Shown: positions 1-8,114 of the stretch, piece by piece
Layout of the letters: the number at the start of each line of letters is the position of its first letter
How positions within the stretch are numbered: the first letter of the stretch is position 1
NCBI GenBank assembly: GCA_000163555.2
Contig: ADAC02000001.1
Span: forward strand, 62,001-126,000
DNA from: an alpha proteobacterium HIMB114
GTDB lineage: Bacteria > Pseudomonadota > Alphaproteobacteria > Pelagibacterales > Pelagibacteraceae
Direction of reading: 5' to 3'
DNA length: 64,000 bases
Program-made: the position numbers and the translations under genes
Notes under the pieces: model-generated
Database searches by the model: none
What the model saw: only the letters and a program-made list of their open reading frames with translations
What the model was told of the DNA's origin: nothing

Positions 1-287
1 GGGAAGATGCTGAAAAAGGTATTTTTAGAGATAACAAAAGAATTCGATCAGCATTAAAAATAGATGATGTAAGATCAGTGAAATCAAAAAATCTTAATCC
101 CCAAGAAGAAAAAGCACTAGAATTTCTAACAATTAATGTTGAGCAGGGTGATCAAGAAAATATTAATATTAATCTTTTATTTTCAGGCAATATGACTATA
201 TCAGTAAATGTAGAGGCAATTAATGCAACGTTAGAAGATTTTTCTGATAGTTGGAAAACAAAAATTAAGCCTGTTCATAAAATTTAA
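1..287 (+). CDS. DUF2948 family protein, 5' truncated by window edge
   Basis: The reading frame is open from base 3 to the TAA at 285-287, so the gene enters from the left edge; the GTG at 78 is internal, not the start. The visible part (about 94 residues) reads through a segment like D-N-K-R-I-R-S-A-L and ends KIKPVHKI. It matches my memory of DUF2948, a small alphaproteobacterial family of unknown function commonly found just before hisD. The stop overlaps the hisD start (TAATG), so the two are probably co-transcribed. The family call rests on context and recalled pattern; no function can be given. Confidence 0.7.
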   Translation, partial: EDAEKGIFRDNKRIRSALKIDDVRSVKSKNLNPQEEKALEFLTINVEQGDQENININLLFSGNMTISVNVEAINATLEDFSDSWKTKIKPVHKI

Positions 288-1576
288 TGAAAATATTAAA
301 TACAAAAAACAAACTATTTAAAAAAAATTTTGATTTAGTTCTTAGTTCTAAAAGAATTCAGTCAAATAATAGTCAAAAAATAGTAAAAAAAATTATCAGC
401 GATATCAAAAAAAATGGCGATTTAGCTTTAATTAAATATACTAAAAGGTTTGACAAGGTAAATTTTGGTCCATCAAAAATTAAACTAGATGACAAGTTAA
501 TTAGCAAAAAGATCAAAAAATTAGATATAAATATTAAGAAGTCTATTGATTTGGCTTTTAACAGAATTACAAAATTTCATAAAAAACAAGTGCACAAAGG
601 TTTTAAATTCAAAGATAAGTTAGGCAATCAATTAGGTTACAAAATCTTACCTTTAGACAAAGTTGGAGTTTATGTACCTGGCGGGACAGCAAGCTATCCG
701 AGCACTTTATTAATGAATTCAATTCCAGCAATGGTTGCCGGTGTTAAAAATATATATTGTGTAATGCCAACTCCTAAAGACGAAATAAATGCTGGCGTAT
801 TATACGCAGCAAAAAAATGTAAAATAAAATCAATTTTTAGGATAGGTGGTGCACAGGCAGTTGCCGCTTTAACATACGGTACAAAAAATGTTCCTAAGGT
901 TGATAAGATTGTTGGTCCTGGAAATATATTTGTAGCTACAGCAAAAAAAGAAGTTTTTGGAACTGTTGGTATTGATATGGTCGCTGGACCATCAGAAATA
1001 ACTGTAATCGCGGATGATCGAAATAGAGCAGACTGGACGGCTGTTGATTTATTATCGCAAGCAGAACATGATGTTTTATCTCAATCAATTTTATTAACCA
1101 CAAGTGAAAAATTTGCAAAACAGGTTTCTTTAGAAGTTAAAAAAATATTAAAAACTTTACCTAGAAAAAAAATTGCATCCAAAAGTATAAAAAATTATGG
1201 CTGTATAGTTGTATGTAAAAATAAAAAAGAATTAGTCGATTATGCAAATATTATTGCACCTGAGCACCTTGAAATAAAAATTAAAGGTTCTGAAAAATTA
1301 GAAAAACAAATTAAAAATGCAGGTTCTATATTCTTAGGTGAATTTAGTCCTGAAGCTATTGGAGATTATTTAGCTGGACCAAATCATGTATTGCCAACAT
1401 CTGGTTCTGCAAGATTTGCCTCGGGCTTATCAGTTAATGATTTTTTAAAAAGAACATCTTTAATTAAGTGCACTAAAAGAGGTATTGAAAAGATTGGACA
1501 AATGGCTATAAATCTCGCAAACTATGAAGGATTACATGCACACGCGCTGTCAGTAAGCAAAAGGATAAAAAATTAA
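287..1576 (+). CDS. hisD: Histidinol dehydrogenase
   Basis: HisD carries out the last two oxidations of histidine synthesis, L-histidinol to L-histidine with two NAD+, in the cytoplasm. The 429-residue length is normal. The zinc-site residues are visible: Gln and His in SQAEHDV (about 258 and 261), Asp in [10 protein letters not shown] (about 357) and His in EGLHAHALS near the C-terminus. VGVYVPGG and VDKIVGPGN are typical family blocks. The ATG overlaps the DUF2948 stop and its own stop overlaps the infA start (TAATG), so translation is probably coupled. hisS, hisZ and hisG lie about 3.4 kb downstream, beyond the tRNA-Phe islet. Confidence 0.97.
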
Positions 1577-1794
1577 TGGCAAAAGAAGAAATGATCGAAT
1601 TTAAAGGCAAGGTAACAGAATTGTTACCGAACGCTACATTTCGGGTAAAACTGGAAAATGATCATGAGATTTTAGCCCATACTTCAGGAAAACTCAGAAA
1701 GAATAGAATAAGAGTATTAGCAGGCGATACAGTTTTGGTTGAAGTAACTCCTTACGATTTAACCAAAGGCAGAATAACTTTTAGACTTAAATAA
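1576..1794 (+). CDS. infA: Translation initiation factor IF-1
   Basis: A 72-residue S1/OB-fold protein that binds the ribosomal A site of the 30S subunit during initiation. The sequence starts [13 protein letters not shown] and contains the diagnostic [17 protein letters not shown] and [14 protein letters not shown] blocks; the length is exactly that of the family. It overlaps the hisD stop by one base and lies 8 bases before maf. The hisD-infA-maf order is common in alphaproteobacteria. The UPF0262 gene often seen between hisD and infA is absent here. Confidence 0.98.
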
Positions 1795-1802
1795 CAGTCT
1801 AA

Positions 1803-2372
1803 ATGTCTAAATTAATATTAGCAAGCGCGTCTCCAAGGCGATTAGAATTGCTCAAAAGTACTGATATTTTTCCTGATATTGTTGAGCCTGCAAATATTGA
1901 CGAGACTATAAAAAAAAAAGAAAAATCTAAGTTTTACTTGAAAAGAATTTGCTTTGAAAAAGCTTTGAGTGTTCAGAAAAAATATAAACAAGACATAATA
2001 CTTTCAGCGGATACAATAGTTACAACAAATCAAAAAATTTTTGGCAAGCCATCCGGTGTAGAAGACGCAATTAAAACATTGAAATATTTATCAGGAAGAA
2101 ATCATAACGTAAGCACTGGCGTTTGCGTTTTGTATAAAAATAATAAGAAAATTAAAATTATTGATACTAAAATAAAATTCAAAAAACTTCATAATGATGA
2201 AATTGATCAATATATAAAAACAAATGAATGGACTGATAAAGCAGGATCATATGCTATCCAGGGGTACGCAGAGAGATTTATTATTAAAATAAACGGATCA
2301 TATTCAAATGTCGTTGGTTTACCATTGCACGAAACAGTCAATTTACTAAAAAGTATAAAGAATTTTAATTGA
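1803..2372 (+). CDS. maf: Maf-like nucleotide pyrophosphatase
   Basis: Maf/YhdE/YceF proteins hydrolyse non-canonical or modified nucleoside triphosphates (dTTP/UTP or m7GTP, depending on subgroup) and are linked to septum formation in some bacteria. The 189-residue product starts with the family signature LILASASPRRLELL and has the SADTIV motif near residue 73 and EWTDKAGSYAIQG near 140. It follows infA by 8 bases. A yacG gene usually follows in related genomes; here tRNA-Phe comes next, 35 bases downstream. Substrate subgroup cannot be decided by eye. Confidence 0.93.
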   Translation: MSKLILASASPRRLELLKSTDIFPDIVEPANIDETIKKKEKSKFYLKRICFEKALSVQKKYKQDIILSADTIVTTNQKIFGKPSGVEDAIKTLKYLSGRNHNVSTGVCVLYKNNKKIKIIDTKIKFKKLHNDEIDQYIKTNEWTDKAGSYAIQGYAERFIIKINGSYSNVVGLPLHETVNLLKSIKNFN

Positions 2373-2407
2373 TTATTTAATAATTATATGAAAAAAGCTT
2401 CTCTGTT

Positions 2408-2483
2408 GGTCTCGTAGCTCAGTTGGTAGAGCAGAGCCCTGAAAAGGCTTGTGTCGCTGGTTCAATTCCAGCCGAGACCACCA
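2408..2483 (+). tRNA. tRNA-Phe (GAA), CCA encoded
   Basis: A complete 76-nt cloverleaf. Acceptor strand GGTCTCG pairs with CGAGACC (2473-2479), A73 is at 2480 and CCA at 2481-2483. The D stem is GCTC/GAGC, the anticodon stem GAGCC/GGCTT with loop CTGAAAA giving anticodon GAA, and the T stem GCTGG/CCAGC. The 3' part from the anticodon loop onward, plus 10 bases beyond CCA, is repeated exactly at 3648-3702, which marks this tRNA as a probable integration target. Confidence 0.98.
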
Positions 2484-2493
2484 CTAAAATCAA
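2439..2493 (+). repeat. 55-bp direct repeat, copy 1 (tRNA-Phe 3' end, att-like)
   Basis: Bases 2439-2493 are identical to 3648-3702, offset 1209 bases. The repeat starts in the anticodon loop (CTGAAAA) and runs through CCA and 10 further bases; the copies differ at the next base (G versus A). This is the geometry of tRNA-targeted integration, with the intact gene at one end and the displaced 3' fragment at the other. Confidence 0.9.
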
Positions 2494-2530
2494 GACTTTT
2501 TTAACTTATATTCAAAATTTTTTTCTTGCA

Positions 2531-2547
2531 GACTGCAATCTGACAGC
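2531..2547 (+). repeat. 17-bp direct repeat, copy 1, upstream of lipoprotein
   Basis: GACTGCAATCTGACAGC occurs here, 14 bases before the lipoprotein start codon, and again at 3557-3573, just after that gene. The two copies bracket the gene inside the larger 55-bp tRNA repeat pair. Confidence 0.85.
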
Positions 2548-2561
2548 ATTAAAATATATTT

Positions 2562-3554
2562 ATGAAGATAGTTAATTATTTCTTTTTAGTAATAATCGTT
2601 TTTTTACTGAACGCATGTGACCAGCTTGAAACACAAAGTTTCAAACCAAATCAAGAAATAAATTTTGAAAAATTAGTTAAATTTAACCCTAATAAATATA
2701 AATTTAAAGATTATAAAAAAGTTATTGGTAATAAAGATGTAACATCTTGGGATGGATCTAAAGGTAAAAGCTATAAAAATACTAGAGATTGGAAAAAAAT
2801 TAATGTTACCTATAAAGGTAAGGATGCAGAGCTAATTTTTTTTCAAAACTCAGATAATTCCACAAGTATAAGTTTAAATTTTAAAAAAAATGTTAAATGT
2901 TCAGATCATAAAAACCTGATACCAAATAAGTATATAAAGCCAGAAAATACACAAAACTACATAGCTGATATGTATTTTGTAAAAATGCCAATTTTTCAAT
3001 CCTCATATGATTTCGAAAATAAGAGAATTAATGTTTATTGTTTAGGTGGACTATCTGGCAAAAACGATGACAAGACAGCAGGTACTGGTTTTTTTAGCAT
3101 ATCAATTAAAAACAAAGATATCTCTAAAAAAGTTGTTGCTTTAAAACAAATTGAGTGCACATTTTCACATTATAAATCTTTAAATAAAAGAGAAAATTAT
3201 AATAAAAATTATCGTTTTTTATACAAAGGTACACAATTAAATAAACTTACAAGGTCTAGCCCACAATTTTTTCATATAGATGAGACAGATAAAAAACTAT
3301 ATAATGAGAGATATTCAACCGTTGGCAAAATAGAAACTTTTAATGAAAATATAATTATATCTATTCGGAGATTAAAAAAAAACAAATCCTATAAATCTAC
3401 GCTGTTAAAAAAAATTAAATTGGATAGAAGAACTGGTGAAATAATAATGAATAAAGAGTTATATGATCCCAAAGATAAGTTTTATAAAGATAAAATTTTG
3501 AGGGTAGAGTACATTGGAGAATGTAAAAAAAGAACTTCTGCACAAAAATTTTAA
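2562..3554 (+). CDS. Unknown lipoprotein in tRNA-Phe islet
   Basis: A 330-residue protein with a lipoprotein signal peptide: a short positive start, a hydrophobic stretch (about residues 6-16) and lipobox LLNAC with Cys19 followed by Asp-Gln. The remainder is Lys/Asn-rich, hydrophilic and has no motif I recognise; four further cysteines are spread through it (in VKCSDH, VYCLGG, IECTFS and GECKKR), which could form disulfides if periplasmic. It sits alone between tRNA-Phe and a partial tRNA-Phe copy, flanked by 17-bp repeats, so it looks like the cargo of a small integrated segment. An aspartate after the lipid-bearing Cys would suggest inner-membrane retention under the enterobacterial rule, which may not hold here. 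Function unknown. Confidence 0.75.
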   Translation: MKIVNYFFLVIIVFLLNACDQLETQSFKPNQEINFEKLVKFNPNKYKFKDYKKVIGNKDVTSWDGSKGKSYKNTRDWKKINVTYKGKDAELIFFQNSDNSTSISLNFKKNVKCSDHKNLIPNKYIKPENTQNYIADMYFVKMPIFQSSYDFENKRINVYCLGGLSGKNDDKTAGTGFFSISIKNKDISKKVVALKQIECTFSHYKSLNKRENYNKNYRFLYKGTQLNKLTRSSPQFFHIDETDKKLYNERYSTVGKIETFNENIIISIRRLKKNKSYKSTLLKKIKLDRRTGEIIMNKELYDPKDKFYKDKILRVEYIGECKKRTSAQKF

Positions 3555-3556
3555 GC

Positions 3557-3573
3557 GACTGCAATCTGACAGC
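3557..3573 (+). repeat. 17-bp direct repeat, copy 2, downstream of lipoprotein
   Basis: Exact second copy of the sequence at 2531-2547, starting 2 bases after the lipoprotein stop codon. A loosely similar segment (CTGGCAGCGGACTG) lies at 3637-3650, next to the partial tRNA copy. Confidence 0.85.
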
Positions 3574-3647
3574 GCTCAGCTTCAAAAAATAAACATTTGA
3601 TCTCTTAAAACTATTATAATACAACGCTCATGGGGTCTGGCAGCGGA

Positions 3648-3692
3648 CTGAAAAGGCTTGTGTCGCTGGTTCAATTCCAGCCGAGACCACCA
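3648..3692 (+). pseudogene. Partial tRNA-Phe (3' half) remnant
   Basis: Identical to tRNA-Phe from position 32 of the anticodon loop through the encoded CCA (45 nt). The 5' acceptor strand, D arm and 5' anticodon strand are missing. A short GGTCT at 3635-3639, followed by GGCAGCGGA, may be a decayed relic of the 5' end with the D arm deleted, but this match is too short to be sure. It cannot fold into a functional tRNA. Confidence 0.88.
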
Positions 3693-3702
3693 CTAAAATC
3701 AA
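3648..3702 (+). repeat. 55-bp direct repeat, copy 2 (att-like)
   Basis: Second exact copy of 2439-2493. It ends 10 bases before the start codon of the GDP-mannose dehydratase, so that gene lies outside the repeat-bounded segment. Confidence 0.9.
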
Positions 3703-3712
3703 AACTATTTAA

Positions 3713-4744
3713 ATGAAAAAAAAAATTGCAATTGTAACAGGCTCATCTGGTCAGGATGGTTCATATCTGTGTGAGTTATTAATAAAAAAAAGTTATAAAG
3801 TAATTGCTGCTGATAGACGGTCATCGAGAGATAATAAGTGGAGACATAAATTTTTAAAAATTGATGACAAATTAATTTACGAAGATTTTGATCTTGGTGA
3901 TCTGAATAGTATTGTTGCATTATTTAGAAAATACAAAATTGATGAATTTTATAATCTAGCAGCTCAATCTTTTGTTGCAGCCTCTTTCAAAACACCACTT
4001 TCTACATCAGAAATTACAGGTATAGGTGTATTAAGAATTATTGATTGTATTAAAAATTATCAACCAAAAGTAAAATTTTATCAAGCATCCTCTTCAGAGA
4101 TGTATGGCAATTCAAAATTAAAATTTCAAGATGAATATACAAAATTTAATCCTAGAAGTCCTTATGCTGTAGCAAAATTATTTGGCCATCATATCACCAA
4201 AAATTATCGTGAAGCTTATAATTTATTCCTTTGCAGCGGAATATTATTTAACCATGAATCTCCTTTAAGAGGAGATGAATTTGTTACCAAAAAGATCGTG
4301 AAACATTTAGTTGAGGTTAAAAAAAAAGAAAGAAGTCATTTAGAACTTGGAAATCTATATGCTAAAAGAGATTGGGGGTATGCAAAAGACTATGTCCAAG
4401 CAATGTGGCTTATGTTACAAAAAAAAATTCCAGAAGATTATGTCATTGCAACTAACAAATCACATTCAGTAAAATTCTTTTCTGATTTAGTACTTAAAGC
4501 TTTAAAGTTTAACTATAAATGGGTTGGCAAAGGAATTAATGAAAAGGCAATTGATAAGCTAACAAGAAAACCATTGATTAAGATAAATAAAAAATTTTAT
4601 AGACCTGCTGAGGTGAATTTCCTAAAAGGTTCTTATAAAAAAGCTAAAAATCAATTAAAATGGAGGCCTAAAACCTCTATAAAAGAGTTAGTAAAAATTA
4701 TGGTAGATTTTGAATTGAAAAACTCCTCATACAAAAATAGTTGA
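3713..4744 (+). CDS. gmd: GDP-mannose 4,6-dehydratase
   Basis: An extended short-chain dehydrogenase that converts GDP-D-mannose to GDP-4-keto-6-deoxy-D-mannose, a precursor of GDP-fucose, rhamnose or perosamine for surface polysaccharide. Visible motifs in the 343 residues are TGSSGQDGSYL (NADP binding, about 9-19), FYNLAAQSFV, the catalytic SSSEMYG and Tyr-x3-Lys in PRSPYAVAK, then GILFNHESPLRG and KRDWGYAKDYV. It has no partner sugar genes beside it and lies between the partial tRNA-Phe and tRNA-His, so it is probably an accessory gene feeding glycan synthesis encoded elsewhere. The ATG at 3713 fits the family N-terminus. Confidence 0.93.
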   Translation: MKKKIAIVTGSSGQDGSYLCELLIKKSYKVIAADRRSSRDNKWRHKFLKIDDKLIYEDFDLGDLNSIVALFRKYKIDEFYNLAAQSFVAASFKTPLSTSEITGIGVLRIIDCIKNYQPKVKFYQASSSEMYGNSKLKFQDEYTKFNPRSPYAVAKLFGHHITKNYREAYNLFLCSGILFNHESPLRGDEFVTKKIVKHLVEVKKKERSHLELGNLYAKRDWGYAKDYVQAMWLMLQKKIPEDYVIATNKSHSVKFFSDLVLKALKFNYKWVGKGINEKAIDKLTRKPLIKINKKFYRPAEVNFLKGSYKKAKNQLKWRPKTSIKELVKIMVDFELKNSSYKNS

Positions 4745-4814
4745 ATATTTATTTAAAATAACTATTAACGGCTTCATGAAACTTGTTTTAAAAAACATTT
4801 ATCATCTTACACAT

Positions 4815-4832
4815 GCTAAGCAAAAGCTTGGC
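4815..4832. other. Small hairpin in the gmd to tRNA-His gap
   Basis: GCTAAGC, loop AAAA, GCTTGGC forms a 7-bp stem with one G-T pair. There is no T-run on either side, so a terminator is unlikely. The rest of the 137-base gap (4745-4881) is AT-rich with no other recognisable element. Confidence 0.3.
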
Positions 4833-4881
4833 AATTAATTATATATTTAACAAAAAAAAAATAATATAAACTTTAATAAAT

Positions 4882-4958
4882 GCAGCTGTAGCTCAGTTAG
4901 TTAGAGCGCCTGTCTGTGGAACAGGAGGTCGTTGGTGCAACTCCAACCAGCTGTACCA
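4882..4958 (+). tRNA. tRNA-His (GTG), non-canonical, CCA encoded
   Basis: A 77-nt cloverleaf with anticodon loop CTGTGGA (GTG) on stem CCTGT/ACAGG. The acceptor strands are GCAGCTG and CAGCTGT, so pair 1-72 is G:U. Position 73 is A and the base before position 1 is T, so the usual G-1:C73 identity pair is absent from the gene. The T loop is TGCAACT on stem GTTGG/CCAAC, putting G rather than U at position 55. hisS begins 5 bases downstream. Confidence 0.96.
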
Positions 4959-4963
4959 AAAAA

Positions 4964-6388
4964 ATGAATAAAAAAATAAGTAAGCCACCAGTAGATTTAC
5001 CTGGCGGCTTTATCGATAGAAAAGAAAAAGAACTGGTTATAAGAGATTTCTTAATTAAACAAATTAAGGAAGTTATGACTATGTATGGTTTTGAATTTCT
5101 TGAAACCCCTAGTTTTGAATACACTGAAAGCTTAGGGAAATTTTTACCAGATAAAGATAGACCATCAGAAGGAGTGTTTTCATTTGAGGATGGAAAAAAA
5201 TGGTTATCTTTAAGATATGACCTGACAGCACCGCTTGCGAGATTTACTGCAAAGAACTTTGATAATCTTTCACGACCATTTAAGAGATATCAATTAGGCA
5301 CAGTATGGAGAAATGAAAAACCAGGTCCTGGACGTTTTAGGGAATTTTTGCAATTTGATGCTGATTATGTTGGAACAAACAACTTATTAGCTGATAGTGA
5401 ATTATGCGTTTTGATGACAGAAATATTAGAAAAATGTGGTCTAGCGAATAACGAATTTAATATTAAAATCTCAAATCGAAAGTTATCAAAAGGATTGTTA
5501 GAAGATCTTGAAATAATAGATCAAGAACAGCAATCTACATCACTTAGAGCAATTGATAAATTAGATCGAGTTGGTATTGATGGTGTAAAGTTACTGTTGG
5601 GAAAAGGCAGGAAAGATAAATCAGGGGACTTTACCGAAGGTGCAAAACTACAAGATAAACAAATAAGTAAAATTATAGAATTTTTAAACTCTAAAGGATT
5701 AGATCAATTAGAGAGAATCGATTGCAAAAACCAATTATTCCAAGAAGGTATCAGCGAATTAAAACAAATAATTAAAAATTTTAAGTTTTTTAAATTTAAT
5801 AATTATAAAATTGATCCAGCAGTAGTACGTGGTCTTGAATATTATACTGGACCTATTTTTGAAGCGGAGCTTACTTTTAAAGTAAAAAATGAAAAGGGGT
5901 TAGATATTGAATTTGGTTCTATTGGAGGTGGTGGAAGATATGACGATCTTGTAAAGAGATTTAAAAATCAAGATTGTCCAGCAGTTGGAATTTCTATTGG
6001 TTTAGATCGTCTATTGTATGCACTAAGTCAAAAAAATATTTTTAATTTTGATCAAAAGTGCCCTGTTTTAATTTGTGTTTTAGATAATAAATTTATGGAC
6101 TATTATTTTAAAATTTTAAATTCGTTAAGATCAAATAATATTAACTCTGAAATTTATTCAGGATCTTCAAATTTCAAAGCCCAATTGAAGTATGCTGATA
6201 AAAGAGGGTGTAAATATGTGATTATATGCGGAGAAGACGAAGTTTCTAAAGAATTGGTCACGCTCAAAAATTTAGTAATAGGGAGCGAAATATCAGAGGA
6301 TATAGAATCTAGAGAAGATTGGAAAAAATCAAAAGACGCACAAAAGACTTTTGCATTTTCGGATTTAATAAAAGAGATAAAAAAATAG
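4964..6388 (+). CDS. hisS: Histidyl-tRNA synthetase
   Basis: A class II aminoacyl-tRNA synthetase that charges tRNA-His. The frame is open upstream into the tRNA gene, but the first ATG after the tRNA is at 4964, giving 474 residues starting MNKKISKPPVDLPGG. Motif 2 is visible as GPGRFREFLQFDADYVG, the HisA block as VVRGLEYYTGPIFEAEL, and motif 3 as AVGISIGLDRLL. The C-terminal anticodon-binding domain follows. It is directly downstream of the unusual tRNA-His and two bases before hisZ. With A73/G1:U72 tRNA next door, this enzyme probably belongs to the divergent alphaproteobacterial HisRS type; that is inference. Confidence 0.95.
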   Translation: MNKKISKPPVDLPGGFIDRKEKELVIRDFLIKQIKEVMTMYGFEFLETPSFEYTESLGKFLPDKDRPSEGVFSFEDGKKWLSLRYDLTAPLARFTAKNFDNLSRPFKRYQLGTVWRNEKPGPGRFREFLQFDADYVGTNNLLADSELCVLMTEILEKCGLANNEFNIKISNRKLSKGLLEDLEIIDQEQQSTSLRAIDKLDRVGIDGVKLLLGKGRKDKSGDFTEGAKLQDKQISKIIEFLNSKGLDQLERIDCKNQLFQEGISELKQIIKNFKFFKFNNYKIDPAVVRGLEYYTGPIFEAELTFKVKNEKGLDIEFGSIGGGGRYDDLVKRFKNQDCPAVGISIGLDRLLYALSQKNIFNFDQKCPVLICVLDNKFMDYYFKILNSLRSNNINSEIYSGSSNFKAQLKYADKRGCKYVIICGEDEVSKELVTLKNLVIGSEISEDIESREDWKKSKDAQKTFAFSDLIKEIKK

Positions 6389-6390
6389 AT

Positions 6391-7455
6391 ATGACAAAAG
6401 CTTTAGTAAATAAAAAAAATAAAGAAAATATTTCAAAAAAAATATTAAATATTTTCAAAAAAAAAGGGTTTAATTTTATAGACTTAGATATTGTAATAGA
6501 TACAGATCTTCTTGCTCAAAGGTCTGGAGAAGCCTTTAAAAAATATGCTTTAAATTTTAAAGATAAGTCAGGAAAGGAAATTAGTTTAAGGCCAGATTTA
6601 ACAATTGCAACAGCTATTCAGTATATTCAAAGGAAAAAAAAAGGAACTGAAAAACTGTCTTATTTTGGTTCAGCTTTTAGGTTAAATAAAAAAGGAGATC
6701 TCAAGGTTTTTGATCAAATAGGTTGTGAAATTATTAATTCCAAATCTTCACCTGAGTATTTAATTCTATCGACAGTTTTGTCAGTATTTAATAAATTTAA
6801 AAAAAAACAAATTATTCTGAATCATATAGGTTTGTTTGATAATTTAATTAACTCATTAAATTTACCTGAAAGATGGAAACTCAGACTAATCAGACACTAT
6901 TCTAGAAAAGAATATTTTGAGGAACTCTTAAATCGTTTGGATACTAATTATGATCTCGATAATGAAAAGATTAAAATTGATTATAATAGACTGGGCGTTT
7001 TAAAAAAATTGGATGCAGATAAAATAATTGGTGGCAGAAAAGTTGCTGAGATTATTGAAAGATTTGAAAAGAAAATTAAAGATCCAAGAGATAATTTTAA
7101 CGGAAGTCGAAGTGTTAAAATTATTAAAGATTTTTTAAAACTAAAAGTTCCTTTAAAAAAATCAGCAGATATTATTAAAAAATTTGTTGAAAAAAATGAT
7201 TTAAAAATAAAAAATTTAAATCATGTTTTGTTAAAATTGAATAACTTAAATAAAAAATTAGGAACCAAGCAAGATGTCATTTTTGATGCTAAGTTTGGAA
7301 GAGAGACTCAGTATTACACAGGTTTAGCATTCTCAATTTGTAAGCAAAGCATAGAGCTGGCTAGAGGAGGAGAGTACAATAATTTGATCAAAACATTAGG
7401 AGGAAAGCAGTCACCAGCTTTTGGAGCTGCAATAAATTTAAATCAACTAATATGA
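6391..7455 (+). CDS. hisZ: ATP phosphoribosyltransferase regulatory subunit
   Basis: HisZ is a catalytically inactive HisRS paralogue that forms a complex with the short form of HisG and is needed for the first step of histidine synthesis. The longer frame begins inside hisS; the ATG at 6391, two bases after the hisS stop, gives 354 residues and is the better start. HisRS-like blocks remain (AQRSGEAFKKY, EISLRPDLTIATA, FGRETQYYTGLAF), but the tRNA-binding C-terminal domain is absent. It overlaps hisG by 4 bases (ATGA). Confidence 0.9.
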   Translation: MTKALVNKKNKENISKKILNIFKKKGFNFIDLDIVIDTDLLAQRSGEAFKKYALNFKDKSGKEISLRPDLTIATAIQYIQRKKKGTEKLSYFGSAFRLNKKGDLKVFDQIGCEIINSKSSPEYLILSTVLSVFNKFKKKQIILNHIGLFDNLINSLNLPERWKLRLIRHYSRKEYFEELLNRLDTNYDLDNEKIKIDYNRLGVLKKLDADKIIGGRKVAEIIERFEKKIKDPRDNFNGSRSVKIIKDFLKLKVPLKKSADIIKKFVEKNDLKIKNLNHVLLKLNNLNKKLGTKQDVIFDAKFGRETQYYTGLAFSICKQSIELARGGEYNNLIKTLGGKQSPAFGAAINLNQLI

Positions 7456-8114
7456 ATAAAATAAAAATAGGACTGCCCAGCAAAGGAAGATTAAAAGATG
7501 AAAGTATAAAACTTTTTTCCTCTAAAGGCTTAAATATTCAAAATACTAACTCTAGGAATTATTTTTTTAGTTTCGAGGAAAATTCAAATTTTGATGGAAT
7601 TTTTTTACATGCTAGAGAAATTATTGAGAGAATAAATGATAAAACGCTTGATGTTGGCATATCAGGTTTAGATCTTTTAATGGAACTTCCTGATGAGTAC
7701 CAAAATAATGTTAAAATTTTAAAAAAATTAAATTTCGGCTTTGCTGACTTGGTTGTGGCTGTACCAAATGATTGGTTAGATGTTCAAAATATTGCAGATT
7801 TAGAGGAAGTTAGTTTTGAGTTTAAAGAAAAATATAATCGAAGAATGAGAGTTGCTACAAAATATCCAAAATTGACAGAGGATTTTCTTTTATCTAGAGG
7901 AGTGACAGAGTTTAAATTAGTTGGGAGTTTAGGTGCAACAGAGTCTTATCCTTTCACTGGTTCTGCAGAATTAGTATCTGATATTACATCAACAGGATCT
8001 ACATTAAAAGAAAACAACCTAAGAATAATTTCTGATGGAAAAATTTTAAAAAGCTCTGCTTGTTTACTTGTTTCAAAAAGTTTTAATATAAAGAGTTTAA
8101 GTTTATTTAAATAA
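7452..8114 (+). CDS. hisG: ATP phosphoribosyltransferase, short form
   Basis: Catalyses ATP + PRPP to phosphoribosyl-ATP, the first committed step of histidine synthesis. At 220 residues it is the short HisG, lacking the C-terminal regulatory domain, which agrees with hisZ immediately upstream. It starts KIGLPSKGRLKDES and has DVGISGLDLLME and the phosphate-binding block near LVGSLGATESYPFTGSAE, followed by DITSTGSTLKEN. The ATG overlaps the end of hisZ by 4 bases. Confidence 0.95.
   Translation: MNKIKIGLPSKGRLKDESIKLFSSKGLNIQNTNSRNYFFSFEENSNFDGIFLHAREIIERINDKTLDVGISGLDLLMELPDEYQNNVKILKKLNFGFADLVVAVPNDWLDVQNIADLEEVSFEFKEKYNRRMRVATKYPKLTEDFLLSRGVTEFKLVGSLGATESYPFTGSAELVSDITSTGSTLKENNLRIISDGKILKSSACLLVSKSFNIKSLSLFK

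Follow-up and report, generated by a model that had tools for sequence, protein, structure and literature searches.

We found that the tRNA-His gene of the alphaproteobacterium HIMB114 (4882..4958 of the analyzed window, a stretch of 64,000 nucleotides; forward strand, as are hisS, the hisZ-like gene and hisG below) carries G55 as one half of a coordinated swap of positions 18 and 55, which recurs in a second SAR11 genus and in phage tRNAs. We predict the product to be a working, essential tRNA-His, whose elbow lock most likely consists of A18 and G55, in place of G18 and U55 or its pseudouridine form (Psi55). The elbow change is a real, recurrent variant, and we found no description of an A18:G55 elbow among the open-access papers listed, as judged by titles and the starts of abstracts, most subscription papers lying outside the scope of that search; the accompanying change in histidine identity is already known.

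The tRNA-His gene, its identity elements and its neighborhood

ARAGORN and the Rfam model RF00005 (68 bits) both recover the gene as tRNA-His(GUG) with all four stems, the anticodon GTG at 4916..4918 (ARAGORN and direct reading) and an encoded CCA that directly follows A73 and ends at 4958. The stems are paired throughout, with G1:U72 as the sole non-Watson-Crick pair; the complete cloverleaf stems, CCA and cognate anticodon of a canonical tRNA are all present, and G18 and U55 are absent. The D loop, AGTTAGTTA, gives A18 (4899) followed by G19 (4900), and the T loop, TGCAACT, gives T54 (4936), G55 (4937, in place of the canonical U55, the pseudouridine site) and C56 (4938), the retained partner of G19. 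Positions 18, 19 and 55 were assigned by direct reading and by alignment to relatives; where HIMB114 tRNA-His has A18 and G55, the sister genera show GG in the D loop and TTC. The TGCAACT loop with G55, called in the original prediction, is confirmed by direct reading; the presentation of G55 as a lone oddity does not stand, since A18 had gone unnoticed and the two positions are swapped jointly.

The standard elbow has base 18 inserted in the T loop and paired with Psi55, described as universally conserved, and G19 paired with C56 (accessible portions of PMC4810234 and PMC7912444). The HIMB114 tRNA-His keeps G19:C56, T54:A58, G53:C61 and the loop lengths, positions 18 and 55 alone being replaced, and because these pairs are unchanged the simplest reading would be a one-for-one replacement, in which A18/G55 substitutes for G18/U55 as a unit and leaves the rest of the elbow as it was. 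Base 18 normally intercalates between T-loop bases 57 and 58; A18 would still intercalate and would pair with G55 via purine-purine hydrogen bonds. G55, in turn, would make the U-turn contact normally made by U55: G55-C56-A57-A58 is a GNRA-type sequence, the turn of which would let G55 replace U55. This argument is not valid for every case, because T loops with GCGT, GCAG and GCAT in the second SAR11 genus (g4; see below), where the 54:58 pair is altered, depart from GNRA. As G cannot be pseudouridylated, Psi55 is presumably absent from the HIMB114 tRNA-His.

The histidine identity features (A73, the lack of G-1 and, as a putative element here, U72) constitute the known alphaproteobacterial identity set and are ordinary for SAR11. 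T at -1 (4881), the pair of G1 (4882) with U72 and A73 had all been predicted and are borne out by reading 4881-4958, with U72 and A73 at 4954..4955, no encoded G-1 and A73 in place of C73. The histidyl-tRNA synthetase (HisRS), the motif 2 loop of which had been proposed as the means of classifying it, has a Gly-type loop, EKPGPGR, versus PQKGR in the aligned solved HisRS (Gly for Gln). Assignment of the G-1:C73 loss to a known alphaproteobacterial tRNA-His with a divergent HisRS was right: seven of eight SAR11 strains have A73, a lost encoded G-1 and the Gly-type motif 2 loop in the accessible part of PMC3937112, and the tRNA-His identity set of Caulobacter comprises A73, U72 and the anticodon in that of PMC9976931.

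The gene belongs to a cluster (287-8114) of hisD, tRNA-His, hisS (4964..6388, coding for the HisRS with the Gly-type loop), a hisZ-like gene for an ATP phosphoribosyltransferase regulatory subunit (6391..7455; its start is provisional and its best matches fall below curated cut-offs) and hisG (7452..8114), with other genes separating hisD from tRNA-His. Five A residues (4959..4963) separate the CCA from the hisS start codon, a gap within the tRNA-His/hisS unit (4882-6388) that is too short for a usual ribosome binding site. Upstream of the start codon the hisS frame also remains open as far as the anticodon GTG, through the 3' half of the tRNA (4916-4963), as it does in other loci of HIMB114's genus (g1), which is probably a coincidence. 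tRNA-His adjoins hisS in 17 of the 19 loci of family f1 in which HisRS was found, the other two being truncated at a contig end but showing the 3' part of the tRNA, and lies apart from hisS in two loci of family f2.

Joint change of positions 18 and 55 in SAR11

The HIMB114 genome is a single contig of 1,237,371 bases with 32 tRNAs, all of which were read; tRNA-His is the only one among them without G18/U55, and no second tRNA-His, canonical or otherwise, was found among these 32. As the genome yielded no other tRNA-His, this one must read the His codons, and from this sole status we infer that it is charged by the synthetase and used on ribosomes. A18 and G55 are both present in all five genomes of the genus that hold the locus, and the TTCAACT version of the loop was not seen in the genus. 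In the remaining three of the eight genus genomes (84-89% complete assemblies) neither hisS nor tRNA-His was found; because hisS is absent from the same assemblies, we discount an apparent loss of tRNA-His, the locus probably being missing as a whole. The A18/G55 change is real and fixed in the genus.

Across SAR11, positions 18 and 55 change jointly. Among 57 tRNA-His genes adjoining hisS, 18 are A18/G55, 39 are G18/U55 and none is mixed; the ratio of 18 to 39 is not a prevalence, as the loci were picked on position 55, position 18 playing no part. These loci comprise 17 of an initial 22 and 40 more picked to include both states; left out were L135 and L136 (cut at a contig end), L139 and L140 (family f2, with tRNA-His apart from hisS) and L150 (a fragment). 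Similarly, ARAGORN called 133 distinct tRNA sequences in the SAR11 loci examined, of which 123 have GG/T55 and 10 lack GG and have G55, again with no mixed case; the set is incomplete since ARAGORN missed some A18/G55 tRNAs. Kinship among the sequences inflates all such covariation counts.

The second case is the tRNA-His of genus g4, which, read upstream of hisS across the family, has a different D arm and always A18. Its D arm is GTGA/GTGT, with the T loops AGCGTAA, GGCAGAA, AGCATAA and TGCGATT, versus the GCTC D arm of the g1 tRNA-His. By a hand count among the matches listed, G55 tRNA-His occurs in at least 25 of 142 genomes searched, at least 23 of these being g4. In a complete g4 genome (G010), tRNA-His, tRNA-Phe and tRNA-Val(GAC) carry the swap, i.e., three of 32 full tRNAs (one extra Rfam match is a fragment outside the 32), and the other 29 are G18/U55. 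An absence of tRNA-His from several g4 genomes, suggested by similarity and by a model that scored 150 candidates per genome, was overturned by reading upstream of hisS. Three g4 loci with the swap (L142, L145 and L147) yield no tRNA-His with ARAGORN at the settings used, and Rfam finds one in each.

The changes affect several tRNAs and scaffolds (g1 His; g4 His, Phe and Val), which makes four or more separate events likely. On the HisRS tree, seven changes of the 18/55 state are needed, at least six of them forced by the starred branches. Some of these may reflect recombination rather than new origins, because near-identical tRNA-His alleles (L142, L145 and L147) sit on separated HisRS branches. 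The loci L141-L149, drawn from the majority of the g4 genomes read and from a single g14 genome, have a more distant HisRS, 45-49% identical to that of HIMB114. In all of them but L143 it is accompanied by a tRNA-His built on another scaffold (D arm GTGA, GTGT or GTAT), which would fit a joint replacement of tRNA-His and HisRS.

Beyond the family, a scan of genome contigs from 84,980 species recovered nine loci with G55 tRNA-His and the g1-type D arm. Four of these belong to HIMB114's genus (Pelagibacteraceae AG-470-E16, TMED146, CP.2 and CC_bin40), and the other five have A18 in three (Planctomycetota SJ126, Kuenenia and bacterium WY5.bin88), T18 in one and G18 in one, the exceptions being G18/G55 in Gracilibacteria (L347) and T18/G55 in Planctomycetota (L354). 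Among 387 alphaproteobacterial genomes the G55 pattern was found in two, both of HIMB114's genus. The patterns behind these nine loci, the 2/387 and a further 5/397 cover only GCTC/GAGC D arms with loops of 8-9 nt, and miss the g4 tRNA-Phe, tRNA-Val and tRNA-His.

Phage tRNAs and the origin of the altered elbow

Phage tRNAs display the same combination. Searching viral contigs for G55, whatever the base at 18, gave, among the matches listed, 118 of 121 with good stems, and these 118 have A18 in 113 (some with AGG D loops also readable as G18G19), T18 in four and G18 in one. Together with a scan for A18 with any base at 55, the matches listed define 191 loci, which were chosen for a pattern match, and counts from them are not a rate for phages at large. 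The tRNAs at these loci that fit neither pattern comprise 790 with G18/T55, 108 with A18/G55, 10 with AG/T55, eight with GG/G55, 25 with GG/C55, 12 with another D loop and T55, one with another D loop and G55, and 191 failed parses. This gives 18 off-diagonal calls (AG/T55 and GG/G55), with seven of the eight GG/G55 calls having AGG loops readable as either A18-G19-G20 or G18-G19. Most T55 matches of the A18 scan proved to be ordinary G18G19 tRNAs with the GG later in the D loop; true A18/T55 occurs at no fewer than eight loci with seven distinct sequences (L284, L308, L310, L318, L320, L325, L327 and L340). In these sequences, 18/55 covariation in phage tRNAs is strong, with exceptions. C55 beside canonical GG D loops is a separate phage variant (L183, L207, L229, L239, L244, L264 and L265).

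A possible, if doubtful, driver of the swap is loss of the Psi55 synthase TruB, by which the lack of Psi55 would have relaxed selection on U55 and let the elbow drift to A18/G55. Consistent with this, TruB_N was not found in any of 20 g4 genomes or in the single g2, g3 and g5 genomes (all 92-100% complete), nor in any of seven g4 genomes in another search, and three tRNAs of the complete g4 genome carry the swap; G010, G023 and G031 (g4), G024 (g5), G069 (g3) and G008 (g2) are examples lacking it. However, TruB was found in g1 (4/5 genomes in one search and 2/2 in another), as well as in g6 and g12, and HIMB114 has a TruB with an intact GTLDP motif and yet the swapped tRNA. Moreover, the 29 tRNAs of G010 that remain G18/U55 speak against general drift, and paired changes are not accounted for by drift alone. 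Loss of Psi55 may nonetheless ease the swap in g4.

We regard it as unlikely that the elbow arose in phages, as an evasion of host tRNA modification or of tRNA-targeting nucleases, and that SAR11 gained it by recombination with phage tRNAs. The elbow is indeed frequent in phage contigs: at eight loci on seven contigs (L251, L196, L266, L168, L220, L184, L179 and L241, with L168 and L241 on one contig), five or more tRNAs were parsed and no fewer than 80% of them have G55. Nevertheless, the g1 gene precedes hisS just as its counterparts in the sister genera do, and is similar to them outside the loops; G55 tRNA-His of the g1 D-arm type lies on only two phage stretches, and the pattern search found no phage tRNA matching the g4 tRNA-His D arm. 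None of the 25 annotated tRNAs of phage T5 has G55, nor was G55 found in any tRNA of six other phage regions picked for their similarity. The searches made lend no support to a phage origin of the SAR11 A18/G55 genes.

It is still less probable that the tRNA controls its own synthetase, the altered elbow adjusting how a joint tRNA-His/hisS transcript is processed. The CCA end does lie 4-7 nt before the hisS start in all 57 SAR11 loci (40 of them chosen for adjacency), but lineages with G18/U55 are equally tightly adjacent, and tRNA-Phe and tRNA-Val carry the swap too.

The staphylococcal cell-wall tRNA-Gly is non-translational and altered at bases 18, 19 and 55, and the unusual elbow raises the comparable notion that the HIMB114 tRNA has been diverted from translation. 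This is very improbable, being contradicted, unless a hidden tRNA-His exists, by the need of the genome for its only detected tRNA-His in His decoding and by the retained G19:C56. A sequencing or assembly error or a decaying pseudogene, conceivable while the change was known from a single gene, can be practically dismissed, as the stems are fully paired, no other tRNA-His was found, and both changes recur across five genomes from separate records, those of the four relatives being three titled as MAGs and AG-470-E16, which is not so titled and which we take from its name to be a single-cell genome.

Significance and comparison with known systems

Returning to the reading of A18:G55 as the lock of a working tRNA elbow, we tentatively propose, as a conjecture of somewhat less than even chance, that it constitutes a second, self-contained lock with no need for Psi55 or Gm18. 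Such a lock would have arisen repeatedly, taken over whole tRNA sets in some phages and be spreading through essential tRNAs of SAR11, where it would replace the modification-dependent lock in lineages lacking TruB. Models of tRNA, gene-finding programs and studies of modification take G18:Psi55 as near-universal; a matched replacement in an essential tRNA, repeated in separate lineages, suggests that re-coding of the elbow is compatible with function. The A18/G55 and G18/U55 tRNAs are, moreover, natural pairs for testing the role of Psi55. The ARAGORN misses in g4 imply that a tRNA may be reported as missing from some genomes that in fact have it.

Among known systems, the GNRA-type turns resemble the HIMB114 loop in that G55-C56-A57-A58 fits the motif, although here it lies inside a 7-nt T loop and some g4 members do not fit. 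With the staphylococcal non-translational tRNA-Gly the HIMB114 tRNA-His shares abandonment of the usual bases at 18 and 55, but unlike it, it is the sole His decoder found and retains G19:C56. The RRCH-type alphaproteobacterial tRNA-His/HisRS pair shares the lack of G-1, A73, U72 and the Gly-type motif 2; the 18/55 change, by contrast, is absent from the published description in the accessible parts of PMC3937112 and PMC9976931. Finally, the canonical elbow, as described in those of PMC4810234 and PMC7912444, has G19:C56, T54:A58, G53:C61 and the loop lengths in common with the HIMB114 tRNA-His, and differs from it in having G18:Psi55 where the latter has A18:G55.
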